35,814 nt of DNA from a virus. The position numbers and the translations under genes are program-made. Location of the stretch: IMG/VR virus record IMGVR_UViG_3300017749_000046, positions 1 to 35,814 of that record, one strand, 5' to 3'. The notes beneath the pieces were generated by a model. That model saw nothing but the letters and a program-made list of their open reading frames with translations. It did not search any database and had not been told where the DNA came from. Shown here one piece after another: positions 961-31,543 of the stretch (position 1 is the first letter of the stretch; each line of letters opens with the position of its first letter).

Positions 961-2004
961 ATGGCAATAACTAAAGTAAGAGCTTCTGGTATAAACCTTA
1001 GTGGCAATACAAGTTATTTAAATATGCCAAAAGGAACTACCGCTCAACGACCTTCTTCTCCAACGACTGGAATGATTCGCGAAAACACCACTCTAAATAA
1101 AATAGAAGTATATAACGGTACCGAATGGCGTGCACTTAAAGAAAATGTGCCAAGTATAGAATACCTTGTATTAGCCGGTGGTGGCGGTGGCGGTGGCTGG
1201 GGCGGCGGAGGCGGAGCTGGCGGTTTATTAATTAACTCTTTTGACCCTGCTTCAGGAACAACCTATACAGTAACTGTTGGAACAGGTGGCGCAAGGGCAA
1301 CAAATAATTCATATAACACCGGTAATAACGGAAATATTTCATCTATTTCTGGATCTGGTTTAACCACTATTGAAGCAGCAGGCGGAGGCGGTGGTGGTGG
1401 TGGAACAGCCCAAACCAGCGGTAATAATGGTGGCTCAGGAGGGGGAGCTACTAATGCGCAATATGCTCCAGCCGTCTCAGGCGGAATTGCTACGCCAGCC
1501 GGGCAAGGAAATAATGGCGGTGCCTCAAGTGGTATAAACCAATATAGAGGTGGTGGAGGCGGTGGAGGTGCTGGCTCTGCTGGTTCACAAGGCAACTCTA
1601 ATGTAACAGGGACTGGCGGATATGGAGGAGATGGCTTGCAATCTAATATTACTGGTAACAATAAATATTATGCCGGAGGTGGCGGTGGTCATACTGACGG
1701 TAGAAGCGGACAAGGAAATGCCAGCGGAGTAGCTTTAGGAGGAAGCGGAGTTGGAGGAAATGGAGGTAATTATCAATATAACAACGCAGGAACAGATGGA
1801 ATAAGAGGTAGCGGTGGAGGTGGCGCATATAATTACTATGGGTACGATGCAGGCAACGGAGGTGATGGCACAGTTATAATTAAAGTACCTACAATTTACA
1901 CAATAAACGTTACGGGGTCACCAACGCTAAATCCAGATGGAGCAGTAACAGACTTTAATATATATGAATTTGGCACAGGAGGTGGAACATTTACAATAAG
2001 CTAA
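961..2004 (+). CDS. Glycine-rich adhesin-like tail protein
   Basis: A 347-residue protein. Residues 1-60 form a head shared with its neighbours: MAITKV, then GTTAQRP and the pattern GMIRENTTLNKIEVYNGTEW. Residues 67-312 are a very glycine-rich domain opening with LVLAGGGGGGG and containing a YTVTVGTGG strand. Runs of this kind are known to form packed polyglycine II helices in some phage adhesins such as S16 gp38; whether that fold applies here is inference. A short beta-rich tail ends with FGTGGGTFTIS. The stop codon shares one base with the next start (TAATG), so translation is probably coupled. The likely role is a virion-surface adhesin or fibre tip. A proline-rich frame on the opposite strand is only the complement of the glycine codons. 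Confidence 0.75.
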   Translation: MAITKVRASGINLSGNTSYLNMPKGTTAQRPSSPTTGMIRENTTLNKIEVYNGTEWRALKENVPSIEYLVLAGGGGGGGWGGGGGAGGLLINSFDPASGTTYTVTVGTGGARATNNSYNTGNNGNISSISGSGLTTIEAAGGGGGGGGTAQTSGNNGGSGGGATNAQYAPAVSGGIATPAGQGNNGGASSGINQYRGGGGGGGAGSAGSQGNSNVTGTGGYGGDGLQSNITGNNKYYAGGGGGHTDGRSGQGNASGVALGGSGVGGNGGNYQYNNAGTDGIRGSGGGGAYNYYGYDAGNGGDGTVIIKVPTIYTINVTGSPTLNPDGAVTDFNIYEFGTGGGTFTIS

Positions 2005-5000
2005 TGGCAATAACTAAAGTAATAAACGACGCGGTAGATTTAAACCAGACTAGTGATTATAGCGGGCTTAGATTACCGGTAGGTACAACAGGTAATGTGG
2101 TAGAATCTTTTACTACTGATTATTTAGTGGTAGGTAGCGGTGGAGGAACTCAAAGTGGTGGCGGTTCTAATTATCCCGGGGGCGGAGGCGCTGGAGGTTT
2201 GCGTACTTCTTATAATAATTCTACAACTACCACAAACTCATTAAGCTTCCCATCGGGTAAAACGGCTATAGCTACATATATGCTAAACAATAATGCCAAT
2301 GATGTTTCTGGAAACTATAACGGTACAGAATTTAATATTTCTTACAATACGGGAAAATATGGGGGTGCTGCGATATTTAACGGGAGTAACGCTTATATTG
2401 ATCTACCTTTAAGTACATCATCTTTATTTGATGGAAAAAATACATTGGCTGTTTCTTTTTGGTTTAAAACAACTACAACAGCAAGACAAAGAATGTTTAC
2501 TGATTATGCTCAAACAAGCAGAAACTGCGATATTACAATAGATGCTGGGCTTATTGAAGTTGTAACTGATTATAACCAAAGTACTAATCTTAAATATACA
2601 TCTACCTCAACATATAATGATAGTAATTGGCATAATGTAATTGTATCACTTGATCAATCCGCAGGACAAAGAACTATTTATATAGACGGCTCTTTGGTAG
2701 ACACTGGAACCTTATCAACAAATAGTTGGAGTGGAACTGGACAAAAAGTTACAATAGGAGCATTTTATAGTTCTTCAAGTGGATATTCCCAATATTTTGA
2801 TGGCTCAATAGATCAACTAAGAGTATATAATTCTGCTTTAGATTCTACTAATGCGTCTAATATTTATAGCAATGAAGTACAAGCGGATTCTGGAGGAGGT
2901 TCAGCGGCTGAATCAAGTTTAACACTAAGCGAAGGTGTCGCTTATGATGTTACTGTAGGTGGCGCTACTACAACAGGCGAAGATTCTACCTTTAGCACAA
3001 TAACGGCTTCAGGAGGTGGTAGATCCGGAGGTCCCGCCGCTAGCGCTTTTGGTTCTTCTGGCGGAAGTGGAGGAGGCGGAGGTGGGGACGCTTATAGTGC
3101 AGCCGGGGGAAATGGCACTTTAAATCAAGGGTATGCAGGGGGAAGTTCGGGCCCTTCGTGCAGCGGTGGTAGTTGTAGATACCCCGGTGGCGGTGGCGGT
3201 GGAGCGGCTGGTATTGGCGAAAATGCAACAACTACAACTGCGGGTAATGGAGGTGAAGGCTTAGAGGTTAATATAATAGGTGGGACTGGAAACTATTATG
3301 CTGGCGGTGGAGGCGGAAGTAGCTATTTATCGGGCGCTGGATCAGGAGGTTTAGGTGGTGGTGGTGACGGATCAGCTAGATTATCTAGTTCTGAAGCTGC
3401 AAATGATGGAGCCGCAAACACTGGTGGAGGTGGTGGTGGCGGACTAATAGCTTCATCAATCCCTGCTCTTGGAGGTTCTGGTGTAGTTATACTTCGTTAT
3501 CCTACAGCTAATGTATCTAGCTTTACAACAACAGGTACACTTAATACACCATCTACAACAGATACTTTAGCAAGTGCTACATATCCAATAACGAATACTG
3601 CATATTATAAATTAGATGGGAACGCTACAGATTCCAGTGGCAATGGAAATAATGGTGCTGAATCAAATGTAACATGGGCAAATGGTAGGTTTGATCAAGC
3701 TGCGGTGTTTAATGGCACAAATAGTTATATATATGCTTCAAATTCCGTACAACAACCAACAACAAATTATAGCATTTCGGTGTGGTCTAAATGGGATTCA
3801 AAGCCATCAGGCAGTGTTGGATTAGTTGGAAACTTTAAAACAGGTGTAAACCCTCAAGTTGGATTTGTTTTAGCTAAAGCAACTGGATCAAATGTTTTTG
3901 GGTTTTGGGCTGATGGAACTGCCACTAATGGTAATGTTCAAGGAACTACTAATTTTGTAATTAACAGATGGTATCATGTTGTTGGAACTTATGACGGTTC
4001 AAATATTAAAATATATGTAGATGGCCAGCTAGAGGGCACACAAGCATATACCGCTACCCCGGGAACTACAGATCAACCTTTAGTCATAGGTAGATGGTAT
4101 GGTAATTACAATGCGTATTATTATGATGGTCAAATTGACCAAGTACGCATATTTTCATCAGCACTTTCGAGTAGCCAAGTAACCCAACTTCACAACGAAC
4201 ATTATCAAACTAAATTTACAGATGGTTCTGATACTGCTATTGTATTTACAGAGGGAACTGGTACAGTAGCTTTTAGCGGAACTAACCCTACTCCACCTCA
4301 AGGAGCTTTAAGAACAAACACTTCATACTCTGAAGATGGATCCGCAAGCGTTATAGAACACTATAATGGTACAGATTGGAAATTTTTTTATGCTATTAAA
4401 TATTGTACAACAAACACATTAAATTTTCCTTTAGGAGCGGGATGTATTGCTTCATATAATCTAAACAACAATGTTAATGATATTGGAAATACTTATAGTG
4501 GTACAAACAACAATGTAACTTTTAATGCTTCGGGTAAGTTTGGAGCGGCGGGAGTATTTAACGGGAGTAGTTCTAATATATCTGTTACTGGATCTTTAAT
4601 TAATTCTTTAACCAGTATAAGCTATTCAGCTTGGGTATATTATAGAGGAACTGGTTCAGGACAAAGCTATGCCCACATAGTCAGTGGGGGTGCAACAAAC
4701 TCACTCGCTGCGGGTAAAGGTTCAGGAATGGCTGTGCAAAATTCTAATGATATATTATATATTTGGGCACCTAGTGGCTCTAGTTTTTCAACAACAACAT
4801 TACCCGAAAACGTTTGGACTCATTTAGCCCTTACTAATAGTGGCGGTACTGCTAAACTATATATGAACGGGAGTTTAATCCACACAGCCAGCGTTGGATC
4901 ATTAGCTTTTTCTTCCTCAAGTAATAATTTACGAATAGGAGAATATTATTATAACGGTTCTCACCATTTTTACGGAGAAATAGATCAAGTAAGAATATTT

Positions 5001-5063
5001 AATAAGGTATTGTCTGCTTCGGAAGTTACTACATTATATAATAACGAAATTGCATGCTCATAA
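2004..5063 (+). CDS. Tail adhesin with glycine-rich domain and three LamG-like lectin domains
   Basis: A 1019-residue protein with the same MAITKV head as the preceding gene. The glycine-rich domain starts near residue 40 (DYLVVGSGGG), is interrupted by a LamG/concanavalin-like domain at about 75-296, and resumes at YDVTVGGA (about 314) to end near 500 with VVILRYP. Two more LamG-like domains occupy about 533-735 and 803-1017. Each shows the family pattern: an AxFNGxxxYI strand, an NxWHNVxVSxD-like strand, a YxDG strand and the ending (D/E)GxIDQxRxxN. Between the last two lies the pattern GALRTNT...EHYNGTDW, also found in the neighbours. LamG folds commonly bind carbohydrate or protein ligands, so attachment to surface glycan is the likely role. 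The start overlaps the preceding stop by 1 base. Confidence 0.8.
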   Translation: MAITKVINDAVDLNQTSDYSGLRLPVGTTGNVVESFTTDYLVVGSGGGTQSGGGSNYPGGGGAGGLRTSYNNSTTTTNSLSFPSGKTAIATYMLNNNANDVSGNYNGTEFNISYNTGKYGGAAIFNGSNAYIDLPLSTSSLFDGKNTLAVSFWFKTTTTARQRMFTDYAQTSRNCDITIDAGLIEVVTDYNQSTNLKYTSTSTYNDSNWHNVIVSLDQSAGQRTIYIDGSLVDTGTLSTNSWSGTGQKVTIGAFYSSSSGYSQYFDGSIDQLRVYNSALDSTNASNIYSNEVQADSGGGSAAESSLTLSEGVAYDVTVGGATTTGEDSTFSTITASGGGRSGGPAASAFGSSGGSGGGGGGDAYSAAGGNGTLNQGYAGGSSGPSCSGGSCRYPGGGGGGAAGIGENATTTTAGNGGEGLEVNIIGGTGNYYAGGGGGSSYLSGAGSGGLGGGGDGSARLSSSEAANDGAANTGGGGGGGLIASSIPALGGSGVVILRYPTANVSSFTTTGTLNTPSTTDTLASATYPITNTAYYKLDGNATDSSGNGNNGAESNVTWANGRFDQAAVFNGTNSYIYASNSVQQPTTNYSISVWSKWDSKPSGSVGLVGNFKTGVNPQVGFVLAKATGSNVFGFWADGTATNGNVQGTTNFVINRWYHVVGTYDGSNIKIYVDGQLEGTQAYTATPGTTDQPLVIGRWYGNYNAYYYDGQIDQVRIFSSALSSSQVTQLHNEHYQTKFTDGSDTAIVFTEGTGTVAFSGTNPTPPQGALRTNTSYSEDGSASVIEHYNGTDWKFFYAIKYCTTNTLNFPLGAGCIASYNLNNNVNDIGNTYSGTNNNVTFNASGKFGAAGVFNGSSSNISVTGSLINSLTSISYSAWVYYRGTGSGQSYAHIVSGGATNSLAAGKGSGMAVQNSNDILYIWAPSGSSFSTTTLPENVWTHLALTNSGGTAKLYMNGSLIHTASVGSLAFSSSSNNLRIGEYYYNGSHHFYGEIDQVRIFNKVLSASEVTTLYNNEIACS

Positions 5064-5073
5064 AATAAATTAA

Positions 5074-8000
5074 ATGGCAAATACAGTAATTAACACACCA
5101 GAATTATTAAACCTTGATTCGACAACAGGAGCAACAATTTTAGCTAAGGGAACAGTTAACGAAAGACCCCCAACTCCTACTTTTAGTATAGATTATCTTG
5201 TAGTTGCCGGAGGTGGTGGTGGTGGCGGAGGCGTTAGTAGTGAATCTCCGGGCGCCGGAGGTGCCGGTGCTGTTATATATCAAGCTGCCGGATTAAATGT
5301 AATTCCTTCAAGTGAATATACTTTATATATTGCAGATGGAGGGGCAGGCGGCGGCAATAATTCTCAGGGAACAAATGGTCAAGATTCATATATATCTTTC
5401 GGTGGCTCTAATATAGTTCTTGCAAAAGGAGGCGGTGGCGGCGGTAGTTATAGCGGCCCAGGATTAGACGGCGGTTCAGGCGGTGGTGGTACTCGAGATG
5501 GAGATACAAATAGTTCACAAGCGGGGGGATCCGCTGTAACTACTAATATAGCACCAGCGGGAGCATCAATTTATGGTAATAATGGAGCAAGCGGAACTGG
5601 CACTGGAGGGTGTTCAGGAGGAGGCGGGGGTGCCGGAGAAGCCGGTAATACTGATGGAGAAGGTACAGGCGGTGATGGTGTACAAATAAATATTGACGGA
5701 AACAACTACTACTGGGGAGGCGGTGGTGGTGCATGCGGATCTGTGGGTACTGGCGGCCAAGGTGGCGGCGGCGGCGGGCCAAGAGGTGGCCAAGGAGGTA
5801 CGGGAGGTATAAATCCAGGTGTAAGTACAGGTAGTTCAGCAGATGGCGGAGGTAATGGTGGCGCTAATACTGGTGGTGGTGGTGGTGGTGGTACTAATCC
5901 TACAAGTTATCCTGGTGGTACCGGTGGATCAGGTATTATAATATTGCGTTATCCAAATACTCAAACAATAACAATAGGGAATGGGTTAACAGGTACAACT
6001 TCTACTGTAGGATCAGACAAAGTAACAACATTTACAGCTGGAACGGGAACAATAAGTTTTTCAGGAACAGTAGTAGGCGGTGACAATGATGCTACAGACG
6101 GCGCGCTAAGATTCAATACTGACACTAATAAAACAGAGTATTTTGACGGTACTGGTTGGTATGAAATAGTTGACGAATACGCGAGCGGATTTATAGGGCC
6201 AGCAACTAATTATTTTGATACAAAATTATATACAGGTAATGGCGCTACACAAGGTATAGGCGGGTATATAAATGGATCAGGGAGTTTTAACGGAAGTAGT
6301 AGTAAGGTAGTTTTACCTGTTGGATTGGGTGATAATGGAGATAGAACTCGTTCAATGTGGATTAAGGTTGGTGAATTACCAAGTTCAGGTTCTGATTTCT
6401 TTTTTTATATAGGCAATCAAGGTGCTAATGATGATTATGAAACTTTAAGAGTAAATTCAAGTGGAAATATACAACTACAAGAAAGAAATGATGCAGGTGG
6501 TTCAGGCGATTTAACATTAACGAGTTCAATTACTTTAAATGTTGGTCAATGGTATCATATCGCTTATGTGTTTAGCGGAACAAGTAGAAAACTTTACATA
6601 AATAATTCTACAACAGATGGTGCGACAGGAACAAAAAGTGGAGGTACAGTTGATAATTCGTCTTTTGCAAGTAATTTAGGTCAATTTAGAACTTTAACAC
6701 CTTCATATGATGGCTCAATAGACCAAGTAAGAATATACGGCACTGCATTAAGTTCTTCAGATGTTACAGCTCTTTATAGCGAAACAGCAGCAACTGCAAC
6801 AACTGCCGCATTCCCATCTGGGCAAACAGCTATAGCCACATATACAATGGACACCAGTGCTAATGGTCTTTTAAATACACAAGATTTAAGTACAGTTAAT
6901 TATCCAGCAGGGGCGGGGTGCATGGCACTATATGAAATGAATGGAAATTCAAATGATACTAGTGAAACATATAATGGTACACCGACTAATATTACTTATG
7001 AAGGAGGTGCATTCGATAAAGCAGCGGTGTTCGGAAGCAGTAGTAATATATTGCTTCCAAGTAATTTAATTAGTGGTACTACAGACAGCGATTATAGTGT
7101 TTCTCTTTGGGTTAAATTTGACACACTACCAGGCGCTAATTTTGTGCCTTTAATAGGCCAACTTAGCAATACGTCTGCTTTTAGATTATTATTATACCAC
7201 AATTCAGGTAGCACTTATAATGTGGGGCTTTTGAGAACATTTGGGGGTACTTATTATTACAATTCTCCGAATACAGCAATACAAGGTACTTTTAACGTAG
7301 GTCAATATTATAATGTAATAGTTACTTACCAAAGCTCAAATAAGTTAGTAAATGGTTATTTAAACGGTAATTCAATTGGCTCATATACACTTAACACAAC
7401 TGGTTCAGGGGCAGCGGGTGCGATTGCTTTAGGTACGTATAATGGCACTACTAGTTACAGTTTTGATGGTTCATTAGACCAAGTACGCATATTTAATACA
7501 GTACTTACGCAATCTCATGTTACAACTTTAGCTAGAGGTATCGCTACATCATATAGCGGAGCAGCTACAAATGTAAACTTTAATGGTCATTTAGATTTTG
7601 CACCAGATTTTACTTGGATTAAAGCTCGTGAAGCTGCTCATGATCATGTATTAGTAAACAGTATTAATGGAGCAGGTAGTAATCAAGGGCTAAGCAGTAA
7701 TGCAACCTACTACAATGGTCAATATACTGCTACATATGGTTATATTTCAAGTTTAAACTCAAATGGATTTACAGTATCTGCAGGCAGTAGCTATGCAAAT
7801 TACACTAATGTAAATAATCAAGATTACGTATCATGGAACTGGAAAGGCGGTGGTGCAGCGGTTACTAATAATGACGGTACTATAGCCAGTCAGGTTAGTG
7901 CCAATAAAGATTCTGGATTTAGTATTGTTAAATATACAGGTAATAGTACTGCAGGTGCTACTATTGGACACGGACTTTCTTCTACGCCTGAATTTATAAT

Positions 8001-8550
8001 AACAAAAGGTCTTTCAGGAACTGACCCTATTACTAATTGGAAAGTTTATAATTCTACAATAGGTAATACAAAATATTTGCACTTAAATTCTACGATAGCC
8101 GCTGCATCAGCATCAGTTTGGAATAACACTTCTCCGACATCATCTGTATTTTCACTTGGCAATTCGGCAGACAATAACGGAAATGGAACTATTTTTATCG
8201 CCTACTGTTGGCATTCAGTTGCAGGATATAGTAAGATAGGGAGTTATACAGGGACAAATGCAATTAACACAATAACAACAGGATTTGAACCAACATTTTT
8301 AATGGTAAAGTTAACAAGTGCTATTAATGGTCAGTGGGTGATGTATGATAATGCAAGGAGTCCAACAAATCCAAGAACTAAAAAATTAGCTGCAAATTCA
8401 AGTGTAGTTGAAAATGATGGAAGTTTATTAGGTGGAGATTCTGTTAATCAAGTAAATTTTACAAGCACAGGGTTTGAATTATTAGAAACAAGTGGCGCTG
8501 TTAATACAAACAAACTCAATGAAACCTACATCTATTTAGCAATTAAATAA
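5074..8550 (+). CDS. Large tail adhesin: glycine-rich, two LamG-like domains, DUF7483-like C-terminus
   Basis: A 1158-residue protein starting MANTVINTPELL. The glycine-rich domain spans about 40-294 (opens with YLVVAGGGGGG, ends with IIILRYP). Next come the shared GALRFNTDTNKTEYFDGTGW pattern (343-362), LamG-like domain 1 (about 372-567), a truncated LamG start (about 578-598), and LamG-like domain 2 (about 605-817) with SLDQVRIFN near its end. Residues about 830-1158 resemble a C-terminal domain widespread in marine phage fibres (DUF7483-like): TWIKAREAAHDH, DYVSWNWKGGG, SGFSIVKYTGN, GHGLSSTPEFII. It is preceded by an A/T-rich leader without a Shine-Dalgarno sequence. The likely role is a receptor-binding or side-fibre protein. 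It is the last and largest of the adhesin array. Confidence 0.8.
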   Translation: MANTVINTPELLNLDSTTGATILAKGTVNERPPTPTFSIDYLVVAGGGGGGGGVSSESPGAGGAGAVIYQAAGLNVIPSSEYTLYIADGGAGGGNNSQGTNGQDSYISFGGSNIVLAKGGGGGGSYSGPGLDGGSGGGGTRDGDTNSSQAGGSAVTTNIAPAGASIYGNNGASGTGTGGCSGGGGGAGEAGNTDGEGTGGDGVQINIDGNNYYWGGGGGACGSVGTGGQGGGGGGPRGGQGGTGGINPGVSTGSSADGGGNGGANTGGGGGGGTNPTSYPGGTGGSGIIILRYPNTQTITIGNGLTGTTSTVGSDKVTTFTAGTGTISFSGTVVGGDNDATDGALRFNTDTNKTEYFDGTGWYEIVDEYASGFIGPATNYFDTKLYTGNGATQGIGGYINGSGSFNGSSSKVVLPVGLGDNGDRTRSMWIKVGELPSSGSDFFFYIGNQGANDDYETLRVNSSGNIQLQERNDAGGSGDLTLTSSITLNVGQWYHIAYVFSGTSRKLYINNSTTDGATGTKSGGTVDNSSFASNLGQFRTLTPSYDGSIDQVRIYGTALSSSDVTALYSETAATATTAAFPSGQTAIATYTMDTSANGLLNTQDLSTVNYPAGAGCMALYEMNGNSNDTSETYNGTPTNITYEGGAFDKAAVFGSSSNILLPSNLISGTTDSDYSVSLWVKFDTLPGANFVPLIGQLSNTSAFRLLLYHNSGSTYNVGLLRTFGGTYYYNSPNTAIQGTFNVGQYYNVIVTYQSSNKLVNGYLNGNSIGSYTLNTTGSGAAGAIALGTYNGTTSYSFDGSLDQVRIFNTVLTQSHVTTLARGIATSYSGAATNVNFNGHLDFAPDFTWIKAREAAHDHVLVNSINGAGSNQGLSSNATYYNGQYTATYGYISSLNSNGFTVSAGSSYANYTNVNNQDYVSWNWKGGGAAVTNNDGTIASQVSANKDSGFSIVKYTGNSTAGATIGHGLSSTPEFIITKGLSGTDPITNWKVYNSTIGNTKYLHLNSTIAAASASVWNNTSPTSSVFSLGNSADNNGNGTIFIAYCWHSVAGYSKIGSYTGTNAINTITTGFEPTFLMVKLTSAINGQWVMYDNARSPTNPRTKKLAANSSVVENDGSLLGGDSVNQVNFTSTGFELLETSGAVNTNKLNETYIYLAIK
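5872..5892 (+). repeat. Perfect (GGT)7 trinucleotide repeat inside adhesin gene
   Basis: Seven uninterrupted GGT codons encode a glycine run within the glycine-rich domain. They differ from the mixed GGN codons used elsewhere in this domain. Such a tract can change length in whole codons by replication slippage without breaking the frame. Confidence 0.8.
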
Positions 8551-9389: not shown

Positions 9390-10943
9390 ATGTCAGACGC
9401 AATTGTCAAAAACCTCAGCTTTGGTCACGAAGCTAAGGATAAACTATTTGAAGGTATAAACAAACTCACAAAAGCCGTTAGTTCCACTCTCGGAGCTAGC
9501 GGTAAACGTGTGATATTAGAAGACGGCGTGGGAAAACCTGTTATTACAAAAGATGGGGTAACTGTAGCTGATTCAATTGTATTATTAGACCCTATTGAAA
9601 ATATGGGTGCTACGCTTTTAAAGGAAGCTGCTAGGAAAACTGTAAGAGAAGCTGGCGACGGAACGACAACGGCTACAGTGCTAGCGCACTCAATTTTAAA
9701 TGAGGCGTATCCTAAATTAAAAGAATTAGGCGCTAGGGGATTAAAAGAAGGTATTGACAGTGCTGTACAGAAAGTTGTGCAACATTTAGAAAAAGCTTCT
9801 GTAGAGGTCACAGGTGATATGATTGACCAAGTGGCTAGTATATCTACTAATAACGATATAAAACTAGGTACAACTATTGCAAACGCTTTTAGATCAGTTG
9901 ATGAAACCGGCGTAGTTATGATGGAAACAACAGAGTTGTCTGAAACTACAGCTGAATTAATTGATGGATTACAATACGAAAAGGGGCTAACAAATTCACA
10001 TTTTATTACTAAGCAAGATTCTAAAGTTGCAGAGCTTGATAATCCTTATGTATTATTAATTGAATCCCCTGTAGAAAATATACGTAAGATACAATCTGTA
10101 TTAGAATACATTATAAAGAAAAGTAAACCTTTACTTATTATAGCTGATTTAGATCCTAAAGTTATATCTACATTGGCAATGAATAAAATAAAAGGTAATG
10201 TAAAAATTAATGTTATTAATGCGCCTACTTATGGGGTAGCTAAAAAAGATATGCTAACTGATTTAGCATTATTAACCGGTGCTACTATTATAAATGAAGA
10301 TTTAGGTGATGATATGGATTTAATACAGCCAGAGCATTTAGGTAAATGTTTAAAATCTGTTACCAATGATACTGAAACTATTATAAAAGTTGAAAGTATT
10401 AGCGATGAAGTATCAGAAGTAATTAATAAAATTAAAAAAGATTTATCTGGTAAAAACAATGCCGCTGAAACTATAAGGCTTGAAAAAAGATTAGCTAGGT
10501 TATCAGCTAAGATTGCTACAGTTAAAGTGGGGGCAGATTCAGATATTGAATTAAAAGAAAAAGCAGATAGAGTAGAAGATGCTATTTGTGCTACTAAAGC
10601 TGCAATTAAAGAAGGCATTGTGCCTGGTGGCGGCGTTGCATTATTAAATGCTGCAACACTTATTAAGCCTAAAAATAAAGCAGAAGAAATATTATTAGAA
10701 GCTATTAAAGCTCCTTATATAACAATATTAGAAAATGCAAACTTTGATATTGTTGAACCTAGCAAAAAAGGTTGGGGACTTGATGTTATTACTGGACAAA
10801 GTAAAAATATGATTAAGTCTGGAATAATTGATCCGTTGCTTGTGACTAAGACTGCGCTAAAAAATGCAGCTTCCGTGGCAACTACTATATTATCTACAGA
10901 TTGTATAATTAATAATTTACGTATTAATGAAGGCAATAGGTAG
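9390..10943 (+). CDS. groEL: Phage-encoded GroEL chaperonin
   Basis: A 517-residue group I chaperonin subunit, close to full length (E. coli 548). It would form an ATP-driven double-ring folding chamber in the host cytoplasm. Visible hallmarks are TKDGVTVA (53-60, D55 equivalent to E. coli D52), GDGTTTATVLA (89-99, D90 equivalent to D87) and RVEDA (394-398, D397 equivalent to the catalytic D398) with EGIVPGGG. The ATP site therefore looks intact. The C-terminal GGM repeat tail is absent; the protein ends INEGNR. By my hand alignment several apical substrate/GroES-contact positions differ: L200 for Y199, H204 for Y203, Q235 for L234, A263 for V263 and M264 for V264, while F205 and L238 are kept. 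groES overlaps its end by 17 bases. The leader is AT-rich without a Shine-Dalgarno sequence. Confidence 0.97.
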   Translation: MSDAIVKNLSFGHEAKDKLFEGINKLTKAVSSTLGASGKRVILEDGVGKPVITKDGVTVADSIVLLDPIENMGATLLKEAARKTVREAGDGTTTATVLAHSILNEAYPKLKELGARGLKEGIDSAVQKVVQHLEKASVEVTGDMIDQVASISTNNDIKLGTTIANAFRSVDETGVVMMETTELSETTAELIDGLQYEKGLTNSHFITKQDSKVAELDNPYVLLIESPVENIRKIQSVLEYIIKKSKPLLIIADLDPKVISTLAMNKIKGNVKINVINAPTYGVAKKDMLTDLALLTGATIINEDLGDDMDLIQPEHLGKCLKSVTNDTETIIKVESISDEVSEVINKIKKDLSGKNNAAETIRLEKRLARLSAKIATVKVGADSDIELKEKADRVEDAICATKAAIKEGIVPGGGVALLNAATLIKPKNKAEEILLEAIKAPYITILENANFDIVEPSKKGWGLDVITGQSKNMIKSGIIDPLLVTKTALKNAASVATTILSTDCIINNLRINEGNR

Positions 10944-11187
10944 AAACTTAATAATTAAAAAAGAAAAGCAAGGTACTTCTGAAACCAAAGGAGGCTTATT
11001 GTTAACTGAAAATCAAAGAGAGGATTTAAGATATAGCAAAGCTAAAGTAATATCGGTGGGTTCTGAGGTAGTTGGAGTTAAAAAAAATGATGATATTTAT
11101 TATGACAAGCATGCGGGGCATGGTGTTGAAATAGATAAGGAAGTTTTACAAATAATTAAGCTCCAAGACGTTGTAATTGTTTTATGA
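10927..11187 (+). CDS. groES: Phage-encoded GroES co-chaperonin
   Basis: An 86-residue Cpn10 lid protein for GroEL. The N-terminal strand is NLIIKKEKQ. A mobile loop carries GGLLL (22-26), corresponding to the GGIVL GroEL-contact motif of E. coli GroES. The core strand is KAKVISVGSE, then VKKNDDIYYDKHAGHG, the usual GD-like turn and roof region with a shortened loop, and a closing strand (VLQIIKLQDVVIVL). It is slightly shorter than the usual 95-97 residues. It begins inside the end of groEL (17-base overlap, different frame) and its stop overlaps the next start by 4 bases (ATGA), so the three genes are probably translated together. The order groEL then groES is reversed from the common bacterial groESL operon. 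Confidence 0.95.
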   Translation: MKAIGRNLIIKKEKQGTSETKGGLLLTENQREDLRYSKAKVISVGSEVVGVKKNDDIYYDKHAGHGVEIDKEVLQIIKLQDVVIVL

Positions 11188-30004: not shown

Positions 30005-31543
30005 ATGCCAGCAGTTATAGAAGTAAAATATTTTAACAGCTTTGTTCTAAAAAAAGTTTTAAGCCCAGAATCTACCTCAGGAGCTAATGATGAAACTCCG
30101 GTTTGGAATGGATCATTTGGTATACCTAACGGTTTGCAAGGTTATGATCGAGGTAATGTAGAAACATCAAATCCTACAATTATTGCTAAAAATTGGACAA
30201 TTGAAGAATCTAGAATCAGAGGGGGGTATAATAATACATCAGTTAGTTTTGGGCCTAGAGCATATTTAGTTGAAGAAGAGCCTAATGCAACGTTTAGAAA
30301 TAATTCTTTAATATATTCCGGTATATTTAATTCAAGCACTGGTGTTAATGAAACCAATGTGTTTAGTGTAGGTACAGATATAACACGTAGTTTAAATCCT
30401 GCTTATGGCTCGATACAAAAGCTTTATGCTCAAGACTATTATTTAACTATATTTCAAGAAAATAAAGTTAGTAGAGCCCCTATTAATAAAAATGTAATAT
30501 ATTCCGCAGAAGGTAACCCTACTGTTACAACAAGTAATATGGTTATAGGTGAGCCACAAGCTTATGCGGGCAATTTTGGTATTAGCAGAAATCCAGAAAG
30601 TCATACTGTATACGGGTTTAGGCAATATTTTGTTGATAAAGATAGAAACGCCGTATTAAGATTATCTAATAATGGTTTAGAAGAAATACAGCGCTACGGT
30701 ATGTATGACTTTTTTAGAGATAAGCTAAGTGAACTGGATCAAGGCAAGCCTTTTGTAGCCGGTAAAGCTGTGGGGGCATGGGATATTTATAATAAACAAT
30801 ATGTCATATCGCTACAAACTGCTAATGCATCTTTTACAACTAATGCCTTAGGCGAGCCTGAAACTAATAAATATTTTACATTATCCTTCGATGATGATAT
30901 AAACGGATGGAATAGCTTTTTTAATTATAAACCTGCTTTAGGATTTAGCTTAAAAAATTATTTTTACACTATAAACAACGGAACAACTTCTTCTACAGCT
31001 GCTGCATTATATCAGCATAATAATTTAACTGTTAATCGAGGTAATTTTTATGGTGTAAATAATAATTCTAATATTACGTTTATATTTAACCCCAGACCCA
31101 GTATGTCTAAGGTATTTAAAACAGTAAATTACGAAGGAAGTAATGGTTGGCAAGTAAATAGCATTAAATCAGATTTTACAGGTATTGGAGTTGCAGATAC
31201 AGCCCCAGACTTTTTAAATTTTGCTACAACCAATACTCAAGATACAAGCGCTTTAATATACAGCTATAATCAAGGGGCATATGATAATTATGGTAATCAA
31301 TTTCCAACACGATTAATACCGCCAATAAATAGAGCGGGCTTTACTAGAAAAGAAAATAAATATATGGCTAATATAGTTAATAGCAGTGTAGTGGCTCCCG
31401 GTGAAGTAAAATTTGGTAATCAAATGAGTGGCATTAAAGGTTATTTTACAACCGTTACAATGTCTACTGATACTGTTACTGATTATGGAGGCCCCAAAGA
31501 ATTATTTGCTGTATCTTCGGAGTATGCAGCATCAAGCTATTAA
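30005..31543 (+). CDS. Second propeller-like tail protein
   Basis: A 512-residue protein continuing the tail module. It shows the repeated strands typical of phage beta-propeller tail components I recall: LYAQDYYLTIFQENKVSRAP, NVIYSAEGNPTVTTSN, AYAGNFGISRNPESH, VYGFRQYFVDKDRNAVLRLS, AWDIYNKQYVISLQT and INGWNSFFNYKPALGFSLKN. The last pattern, GWNSFxxYxP followed by LKNxFYT, is frequent in such proteins. There are no cysteines or enzyme motifs. In related phages this part may be fused to or follow the large nozzle-like protein; here it is a separate gene. The likely role is a structural tail protein at or near the tip. The next gene begins 5 bases downstream. Confidence 0.7.
   Translation: MPAVIEVKYFNSFVLKKVLSPESTSGANDETPVWNGSFGIPNGLQGYDRGNVETSNPTIIAKNWTIEESRIRGGYNNTSVSFGPRAYLVEEEPNATFRNNSLIYSGIFNSSTGVNETNVFSVGTDITRSLNPAYGSIQKLYAQDYYLTIFQENKVSRAPINKNVIYSAEGNPTVTTSNMVIGEPQAYAGNFGISRNPESHTVYGFRQYFVDKDRNAVLRLSNNGLEEIQRYGMYDFFRDKLSELDQGKPFVAGKAVGAWDIYNKQYVISLQTANASFTTNALGEPETNKYFTLSFDDDINGWNSFFNYKPALGFSLKNYFYTINNGTTSSTAAALYQHNNLTVNRGNFYGVNNNSNITFIFNPRPSMSKVFKTVNYEGSNGWQVNSIKSDFTGIGVADTAPDFLNFATTNTQDTSALIYSYNQGAYDNYGNQFPTRLIPPINRAGFTRKENKYMANIVNSSVVAPGEVKFGNQMSGIKGYFTTVTMSTDTVTDYGGPKELFAVSSEYAASSY

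Follow-up and report, generated by a model that had tools for sequence, protein, structure and literature searches.

Within the second of three consecutive fibre genes of a linear viral record (35,814 bases, analysed at its full length and called the window below), a complete LamG domain interrupts the glycine-rich domain, and in close relatives the same position holds LamG domains with related edges and completely different cores. We think it likely that this gene encodes a fibre or adhesin subunit in which a LamG was inserted once, within strand β2 of the scaffold, that the core of the inserted domain has since been replaced repeatedly by recombination, and that the domain probably binds glycans.

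The large terminase of the window has 62% identity with its counterpart in a podovirus genome from Manatee Spring and about 45% with those of Flavobacterium phages. Among 87 terminase-matching records, 68 carry Flavobacterium names and 15 carry Cellulophaga names, which makes a marine flavobacterium the probable host. The fibre genes lie at 961–2004, 2004–5063 and 5074–8550 (here genes 1, 2 and 3), and Pfam places a Gly_rich_2 domain in all three, together with three LamG domains in gene 2 and with two LamG domains and a DUF7483 in gene 3. The open reading frame of gene 2 was confirmed and has a product of 1019 residues. When annotated phages were searched with the whole of gene 2, the sole match was a LamG match to Synechococcus phage S-H9-2; the corresponding search with gene 1 returned 116 records, and in the 40 of these that were inspected the match was confined to the first ~70 residues. 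The gene upstream of these three (288–959), at the record's open end, contains, as read by eye, repeated MRIDSxGNVGIGT motifs, which we take to be typical of fibre or spike proteins.

Evidence for the nesting comes from how the glycine-rich profile breaks. Gly_rich_2 (PF21722) scores 28.4 bits in gene 2, against a curated cut-off of 24.3 and against 77.8 and 43.5 bits in the two neighbouring genes, and its best stretch in gene 2 (residues 297–499) begins only at profile position 40. A profile of our own for the glycine-rich domain finds a weak left piece and a right piece that starts at model position 30, and these flank an insert of about 225 residues that breaks the continuity that is usual for, if not strictly defining of, Gly_rich_2. 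Laminin_G_3 (PF13385) matches gene 2 in three stretches, at 231.9 bits against a cut-off of 27.6. In gene 1 the glycine-rich domain is continuous (GAGGLLINSFDPASGTTYTVTVG), with 12 residues between the opening glycine segment and the following strand, and gene 3 is likewise continuous at this loop (GAGGAGAVIYQAAGLNVIPSSEYTLYIADGG); in gene 2 the domain is cut after GGGGAGGLRTSY and resumes at SGGGSAAESSLTLS...YDVTVG (Table 1). An earlier note on this DNA had placed a complete LamG between two glycine-rich parts at about residues 75–296, which agrees closely with the 71–295 that Pfam, our own profile and the structural model give. The note had also described the neighbours as running directly from the glycine segment into the next strand; they are indeed uninterrupted, but their empty loops are about 12–29 residues long. 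Its further proposal, that the two glycine-rich parts make up one interrupted scaffold, holds up as far as profile continuity and predicted strand order reach, with no sign of the two parts folding separately, and on that basis the split Gly_rich_2 of gene 2 appears still to be one domain. GC content is 32.9% in the insert, 49–52% in the two glycine parts, 37% in the other LamGs and 35% over the whole window; the contrast between insert and glycine parts reflects glycine codons and is no evidence of a foreign origin.

Table 1 Features of the three fibre genes, in window coordinates.
Feature	Position	Strand	Basis
Gene 1: neighbouring paralogous fibre gene with uninterrupted glycine-rich domain (control)	961..2004	+	Gly_rich_2 at residues 60-308; model pLDDT 88.6, pTM 0.84
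Gene 2: N-terminal segment, residues 1-34 (MAITKVIND...), probable attachment end	2004..2105	+	Common to orthologues; model confidence low at residues 1-28
Gene 2: left part of split glycine-rich domain, residues 35-70 (strand 1, GGGGAGGL, first half of strand 2, TSY)	2106..2213	+	Weak left profile piece from model position 2; modelled strands 35-43 and 66-68
Gene 2: inserted LamG domain, residues 71-295	2214..2888	+	Laminin_G_3 / Laminin_G_2; residues 85-290 match AbnA domain 4, Z 24.5
Gene 2: exchangeable LamG core, residues 129-249	2388..2750	+	No blastn homology to L001 (gap 2387-2749); 16-31% amino-acid identity among four loop LamGs over residues 126-270
Gene 2: right part of glycine-rich domain, residues 296-500 (SGGGSAAESSL through VILRYP)	2889..3503	+	Gly_rich_2 at residues 297-499; profile piece 30-239
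Gene 2: second LamG, C-terminal to glycine-rich domain; core also replaced between window and L001	3594..4230	+	Laminin_G_3 best stretch 570-726; blastn gap 3732-4124; core 18-29% amino-acid identity
Gene 2: third LamG, C-terminus	4480..5060	+	Laminin_G_3, three stretches in gene; profile match near C-terminal end
Gene 3: neighbouring fibre gene with uninterrupted Gly_rich_2, two LamG and DUF7483	5074..8550	+	Pfam; blastn gaps to L001 within its LamGs

The scaffold resembles known phage fibre tips. The model of gene 1 has as its best fold match the tail-tip protein of phage Bxb1 (PDB 9d93, Z 13.6), followed by Pam3 gp24 (PDB 7ypx/7yfw, Z 12.7) and then by the ALK/LTK ligand-binding domain at about 6; the polyglycine adhesin S16 gp38 (6F45) is absent among the fold matches listed. 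The Pam3 gp24 match covers residues 61–315 of gene 1 (rmsd 2.7 over 167 residues) and is accompanied by a sequence-profile match with an E value of 4e-5. A TNF-like plus glycine-rich fibre fold is thereby predicted for gene 1 from its model, and by homology the split gene should share it. According to its published description (PMC9608196), the Pam3 protein has its TNF-like β-strands along the fibre axis and its glycine loops stacked at the far end, and receptor recognition is proposed to take place at this tip of the fibre, through contact with the ends of the loops. It differs from gene 2 in being described with three domains (helical, TNF-like and glycine-rich) and no lectin insert. Mycobacteriophage ‘brush’ domains are described as polyglycine-rich (PMC13243795), and the matched Bxb1 chain is probably one of these; unlike the fibre gene studied here, it belongs to a siphovirus tail tip. 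Strand order is alike in the models of genes 1 and 2, the strand LLINSF of gene 1 being split in gene 2 into LRT (residues 66–68) and LTLS (306–309). By comparison with Pam3 gp24, the LamG would interrupt strand β2 of the TNF-like β-sandwich and should leave the fibre sideways, immediately beneath the glycine lattice instead of at the tip, a predicted placement that speaks against the earlier idea of a lectin displayed from a polyglycine loop.

An AlphaFold2 model of the split domain, made from a 39-row alignment, has a pLDDT of 80 and a pTM of 0.68. Its pLDDT falls below 50 at residues 73–75 and 293–297, on either side of the LamG, and otherwise just at both ends of the model; two such low points are what hinges would give. 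Modelled residues 85–290 superpose on domain 4 of AbnA, a GH43 arabinanase with a solved LamG-type structure (PDB 5ho2/5hon), with an rmsd of 2.0 over 192 residues, and are thus predicted to form the same LamG-type jelly roll. The title of the 5hon record gives AbnA domain 4 complexed with arabino-oligosaccharide. Unlike the LamG of gene 2, AbnA domain 4 is an enzyme appendage and is not nested, and identity between the two is just 24%. Clostridial neurotoxin binding domains, which are among the many LamG fold matches (Foldseek/VIA), were set aside as having only the common jelly-roll fold.

Three viral contigs from other samples (L001, L002 and L003) carry a LamG at the same place, with the same two junctions as in the window. 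Their large terminase (TerL) is 99% (L001), 93% and 97% (two pieces, L002) and 82% (L003) identical to that of the window. Orthologues in L004, L005 and L007 begin with the same MAITKVIND, which is common to all seven aligned orthologue rows, and have an empty loop; their TerL identity is 71–76%, and that of the relatives searched is 61–76% except for L006 at 84%. Since the LamG is found at the same site in three relatives and the loop is empty in more distant ones, the insertion was probably a single event in this clade. Gene 3 of L001 and L002 has an uninterrupted loop of the same long type, GAGGLRTSYGSTSGGG..AESS (RTSYGSTSGGG..AES). At the entry to the insert, the scaffold codons ACT TCT TAT are followed by AAT AAT TCT ACA ACT, and this resembles the linker between the tandem LamGs of L067, TTG TAT AAT AAC GAA ACA ACT, the TAT codon being common to both; the resemblance leads us to infer that what the loop captured was a single unit from a tandem LamG array. 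In L006, gene 2 has collapsed (448–660): its MAITKVIND start is retained and fused to a short downstream module, its glycine-rich and LamG parts are gone, and gene 3 of this contig is also without such parts.

We surveyed this loop more broadly with a profile of the part to its right, a query that keeps the loop from biasing the sample. Among the matches listed, 185 fell in 126 loci (at least 80 from a viral scan and 14 from a bacterial genome scan); 179 had a left anchor, the 6 without one were dropped, and the merging of 7 duplicates left 172 distinct glycine-rich domains. The distance between left and right anchors is at most 60 residues in 167 of these 172 and at least 250 in the other five, namely the window, L001, L002, L003 and L150, the last of which its own sequence reveals to be a search-pattern miss and not a fifth insert. 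The loop is thus empty in 168 of the 172 distinct domains among the matches listed and holds a LamG in 4. Being absent from 168 of 172 relatives among the matches listed, the LamG is not a general adaptor. The earlier note had suggested looking for homologues with other inserts at this loop, and none other than LamG came to light in the 172 distinct domains among the matches listed. The loop does vary between homologues, in that four of them hold LamGs with different cores and others are empty. A scan with split profile pieces flagged three of the four known inserts, all four of which show as split pieces; it also flagged L112 (a copy of the L001 contig), L102, L103, L143 and L168.

Outside the fibre genes, the DNA of the window and of L001 is 96.2, 94.6 and 95.8% identical over stretches of 2,480, 1,862 and 6,567 bases, and inside the nested LamG blastn between the two finds nothing between 2387 and 2749. 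Amino-acid identity among the four loop LamGs is 63–85% over residues 80–125 and 50–73% over residues 271–296 but just 16–31% over residues 126–270, and the length of the core changes among relatives, with differences that span whole cores and are not scattered codons. Further blastn gaps between the window and L001 lie in the second LamG (3732–4124) and in both LamGs of gene 3 (6316–6711 and 7054–7474), so the nested LamG is not alone in exchanging its core. The right glycine-rich half also has a blastn gap to L001 (2961–3474), with 48–57% amino-acid identity, and the LamG is therefore not the sole variable part.

Edges and cores rank differently when each loop LamG is compared with all others (copies L053–L055 excluded). 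The N-edge of each of the four has another loop LamG as its nearest piece (first among 92 other pieces), whereas for the cores, each compared with 105 others, the first loop LamG comes only at rank 16 for the window, 15 for L001, 5 for L003 and 2 for L002. The C-edge is mixed, its nearest piece being another loop LamG for the window and L001 and not for L003 and L002. In a blastp comparison of 90 cores, the best match of each of the four loop cores was a non-loop LamG. In particular, the L002 core recurs in four other contigs (L174–L177) at 69–77% protein identity, and the L001 core recurs in one (L172) at 56%; with domains read by eye, none of these five matching LamGs lies in a glycine-domain loop. 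The matching LamG follows a DUF7483-like stretch in L175 and L176, in fibres whose own glycine loop is empty, and lies in a long fibre in L174 and L177 and near the gene start in L172. The terminases of four of the five contigs are related (69–75%), and L172 shows none. At the nucleotide level, residues 117–271 of the L002 gene are 72–75% identical to the LamGs of L174–L177, and the window aligns with L002 at residues 1–148 and 264–788, flanking the core, which at 18% protein identity differs from that of the window. By these alignments, the L002 core is a replacement at conserved LamG edges. For the core of the window itself, a viral scan for a close relative gave 11 pattern matches, 0 of which were confirmed. 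The earlier note's suggestion of modular lectin swapping stands in so far as the cores differ completely on a related scaffold with related edges; the unit exchanged, however, is the LamG core and not the whole domain.

These data bear on three other accounts of the variation or of the nesting. The cores might have diverged in place very fast under host selection without exchange, and a core tree leaves some room for this: a single clade of the four loop LamGs is not rejected (p-AU 0.434), few forks are resolved, and the four need 4 changes, the same as with shuffled labels. Being so poorly resolved, the tree cannot by itself separate replacement from very fast divergence. Divergence in place would nevertheless have had to erase all blastn homology in the core between backbones that are 95–96% identical in DNA, and would leave the L002 core closer to non-loop LamGs of phages with 69–75% TerL identity than to the core of the window, and we regard it as unlikely. 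High variability of the LamG core between near relatives could also recall a diversity-generating retroelement, a source that we consider very improbable: no reverse transcriptase (PF00078) turned up in the 9 records searched, several of which are partial, and the changes involve whole cores and their lengths. Since the window is a metagenomic viral record, an assembly error or a frameshift might be suspected of having produced the nesting; this is refuted by three contigs from other samples that have the same junctions, each in a single open frame.

The role of the domain is a separate matter. LamG-type domains are binding modules, and our best guess, by analogy, is that the inserted LamG binds host surface glycans; it may thereby decide receptor specificity and play a part in the choice of host. 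The insert might instead be a spacer or stabilising piece, making trimer contacts or providing shielding and having no receptor role. Its predicted place on the flank, away from the polyglycine tip, would suit such a piece, as would the abundance of LamG modules in these fibres (147 pieces), but replacement of the core with fixed edges is not expected of a mere spacer, and we judge this reading improbable, if less so than divergence in place.

We favour the following course for insertion and repeated core replacement. The product of the gene would be a subunit of a phage tail fibre or adhesin, and its tip-forming domain would consist of a TNF-like β-sandwich with a glycine-rich lattice on top. 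In the ancestor of a small clade, a LamG module from a tandem LamG array, extending from one Y-N-N linker to the following one, would have been placed once inside strand β2. The scaffold would still close around the inserted LamG, which would be attached to the side of the fibre tip by two flexible hinges, as an additional and probably glycan-binding receptor module. Its core would then have been replaced repeatedly as other LamG genes recombined with it, with the conserved edges of the domain (FNGS... and ...GxxDQVR) as homology arms, so that frame and hinges stay constant while the binding face changes. We give about even odds to a stronger version of this, a two-level cassette in which only the core is exchanged, from a pool of LamG cores common to other fibre genes and phages, while the glycine-rich frame and the edges of the LamG stay in place as a permanent socket on the side of the tip. 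If true, such a cassette would let receptor choice change without disturbing the folding or assembly of the fibre. The comparisons locate the boundaries of a natural lectin exchange inside one domain, between phages 95–96% identical in backbone DNA, and offer a concrete, testable rule for how such marine phages may change their attachment. The gene would also be a natural example of a glycine-rich fibre fold that tolerates a large domain insert.

Tail fibres are modular mosaics in which distal binding parts, usually C-terminal, are exchanged between phages by recombination at conserved blocks. The exchange described here differs in that it lies inside a nested domain, both flanks of which are kept. 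Another parallel is the evolved Dit of lactococcal 936 phages, in which a carbohydrate-binding module inserted in a tail protein adds a host-binding surface (PMC6669499). There the scaffold is Dit and the module is BppA-like, whereas here the scaffold matched Gly_rich_2 and fibre folds and the core of the LamG is exchanged inside a fixed LamG shell. Among the open-access papers listed for this combination, we found no report of a glycine-rich fibre domain that contains a LamG and in which only the LamG core is exchanged. Phage tail proteins with inserted binding modules are already known, and what appears to be new is the socket with exchangeable LamG cores.

The alignments of two uncultured phage proteins in BFVD (A0A6J5PPG5 and A0A6J5Q1Y0) with the split domain cover 481 and 505 columns, and these proteins may have the same architecture. 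Not far beyond the fibre genes, the window contains a GroEL-type chaperonin at 9390–10943 (Cpn60_TCP1, 198 bits) and a GroES-type partner at 10927–11187 (Cpn10, 45.7 bits), and we speculate that this pair might help to fold the glycine-rich fibres. Further along, a gene at 30005–31543 matches the C-terminal domain of the crassvirus muzzle protein (PF25729, E 1.5e-13), which suggests kinship with crAss-like podoviruses.
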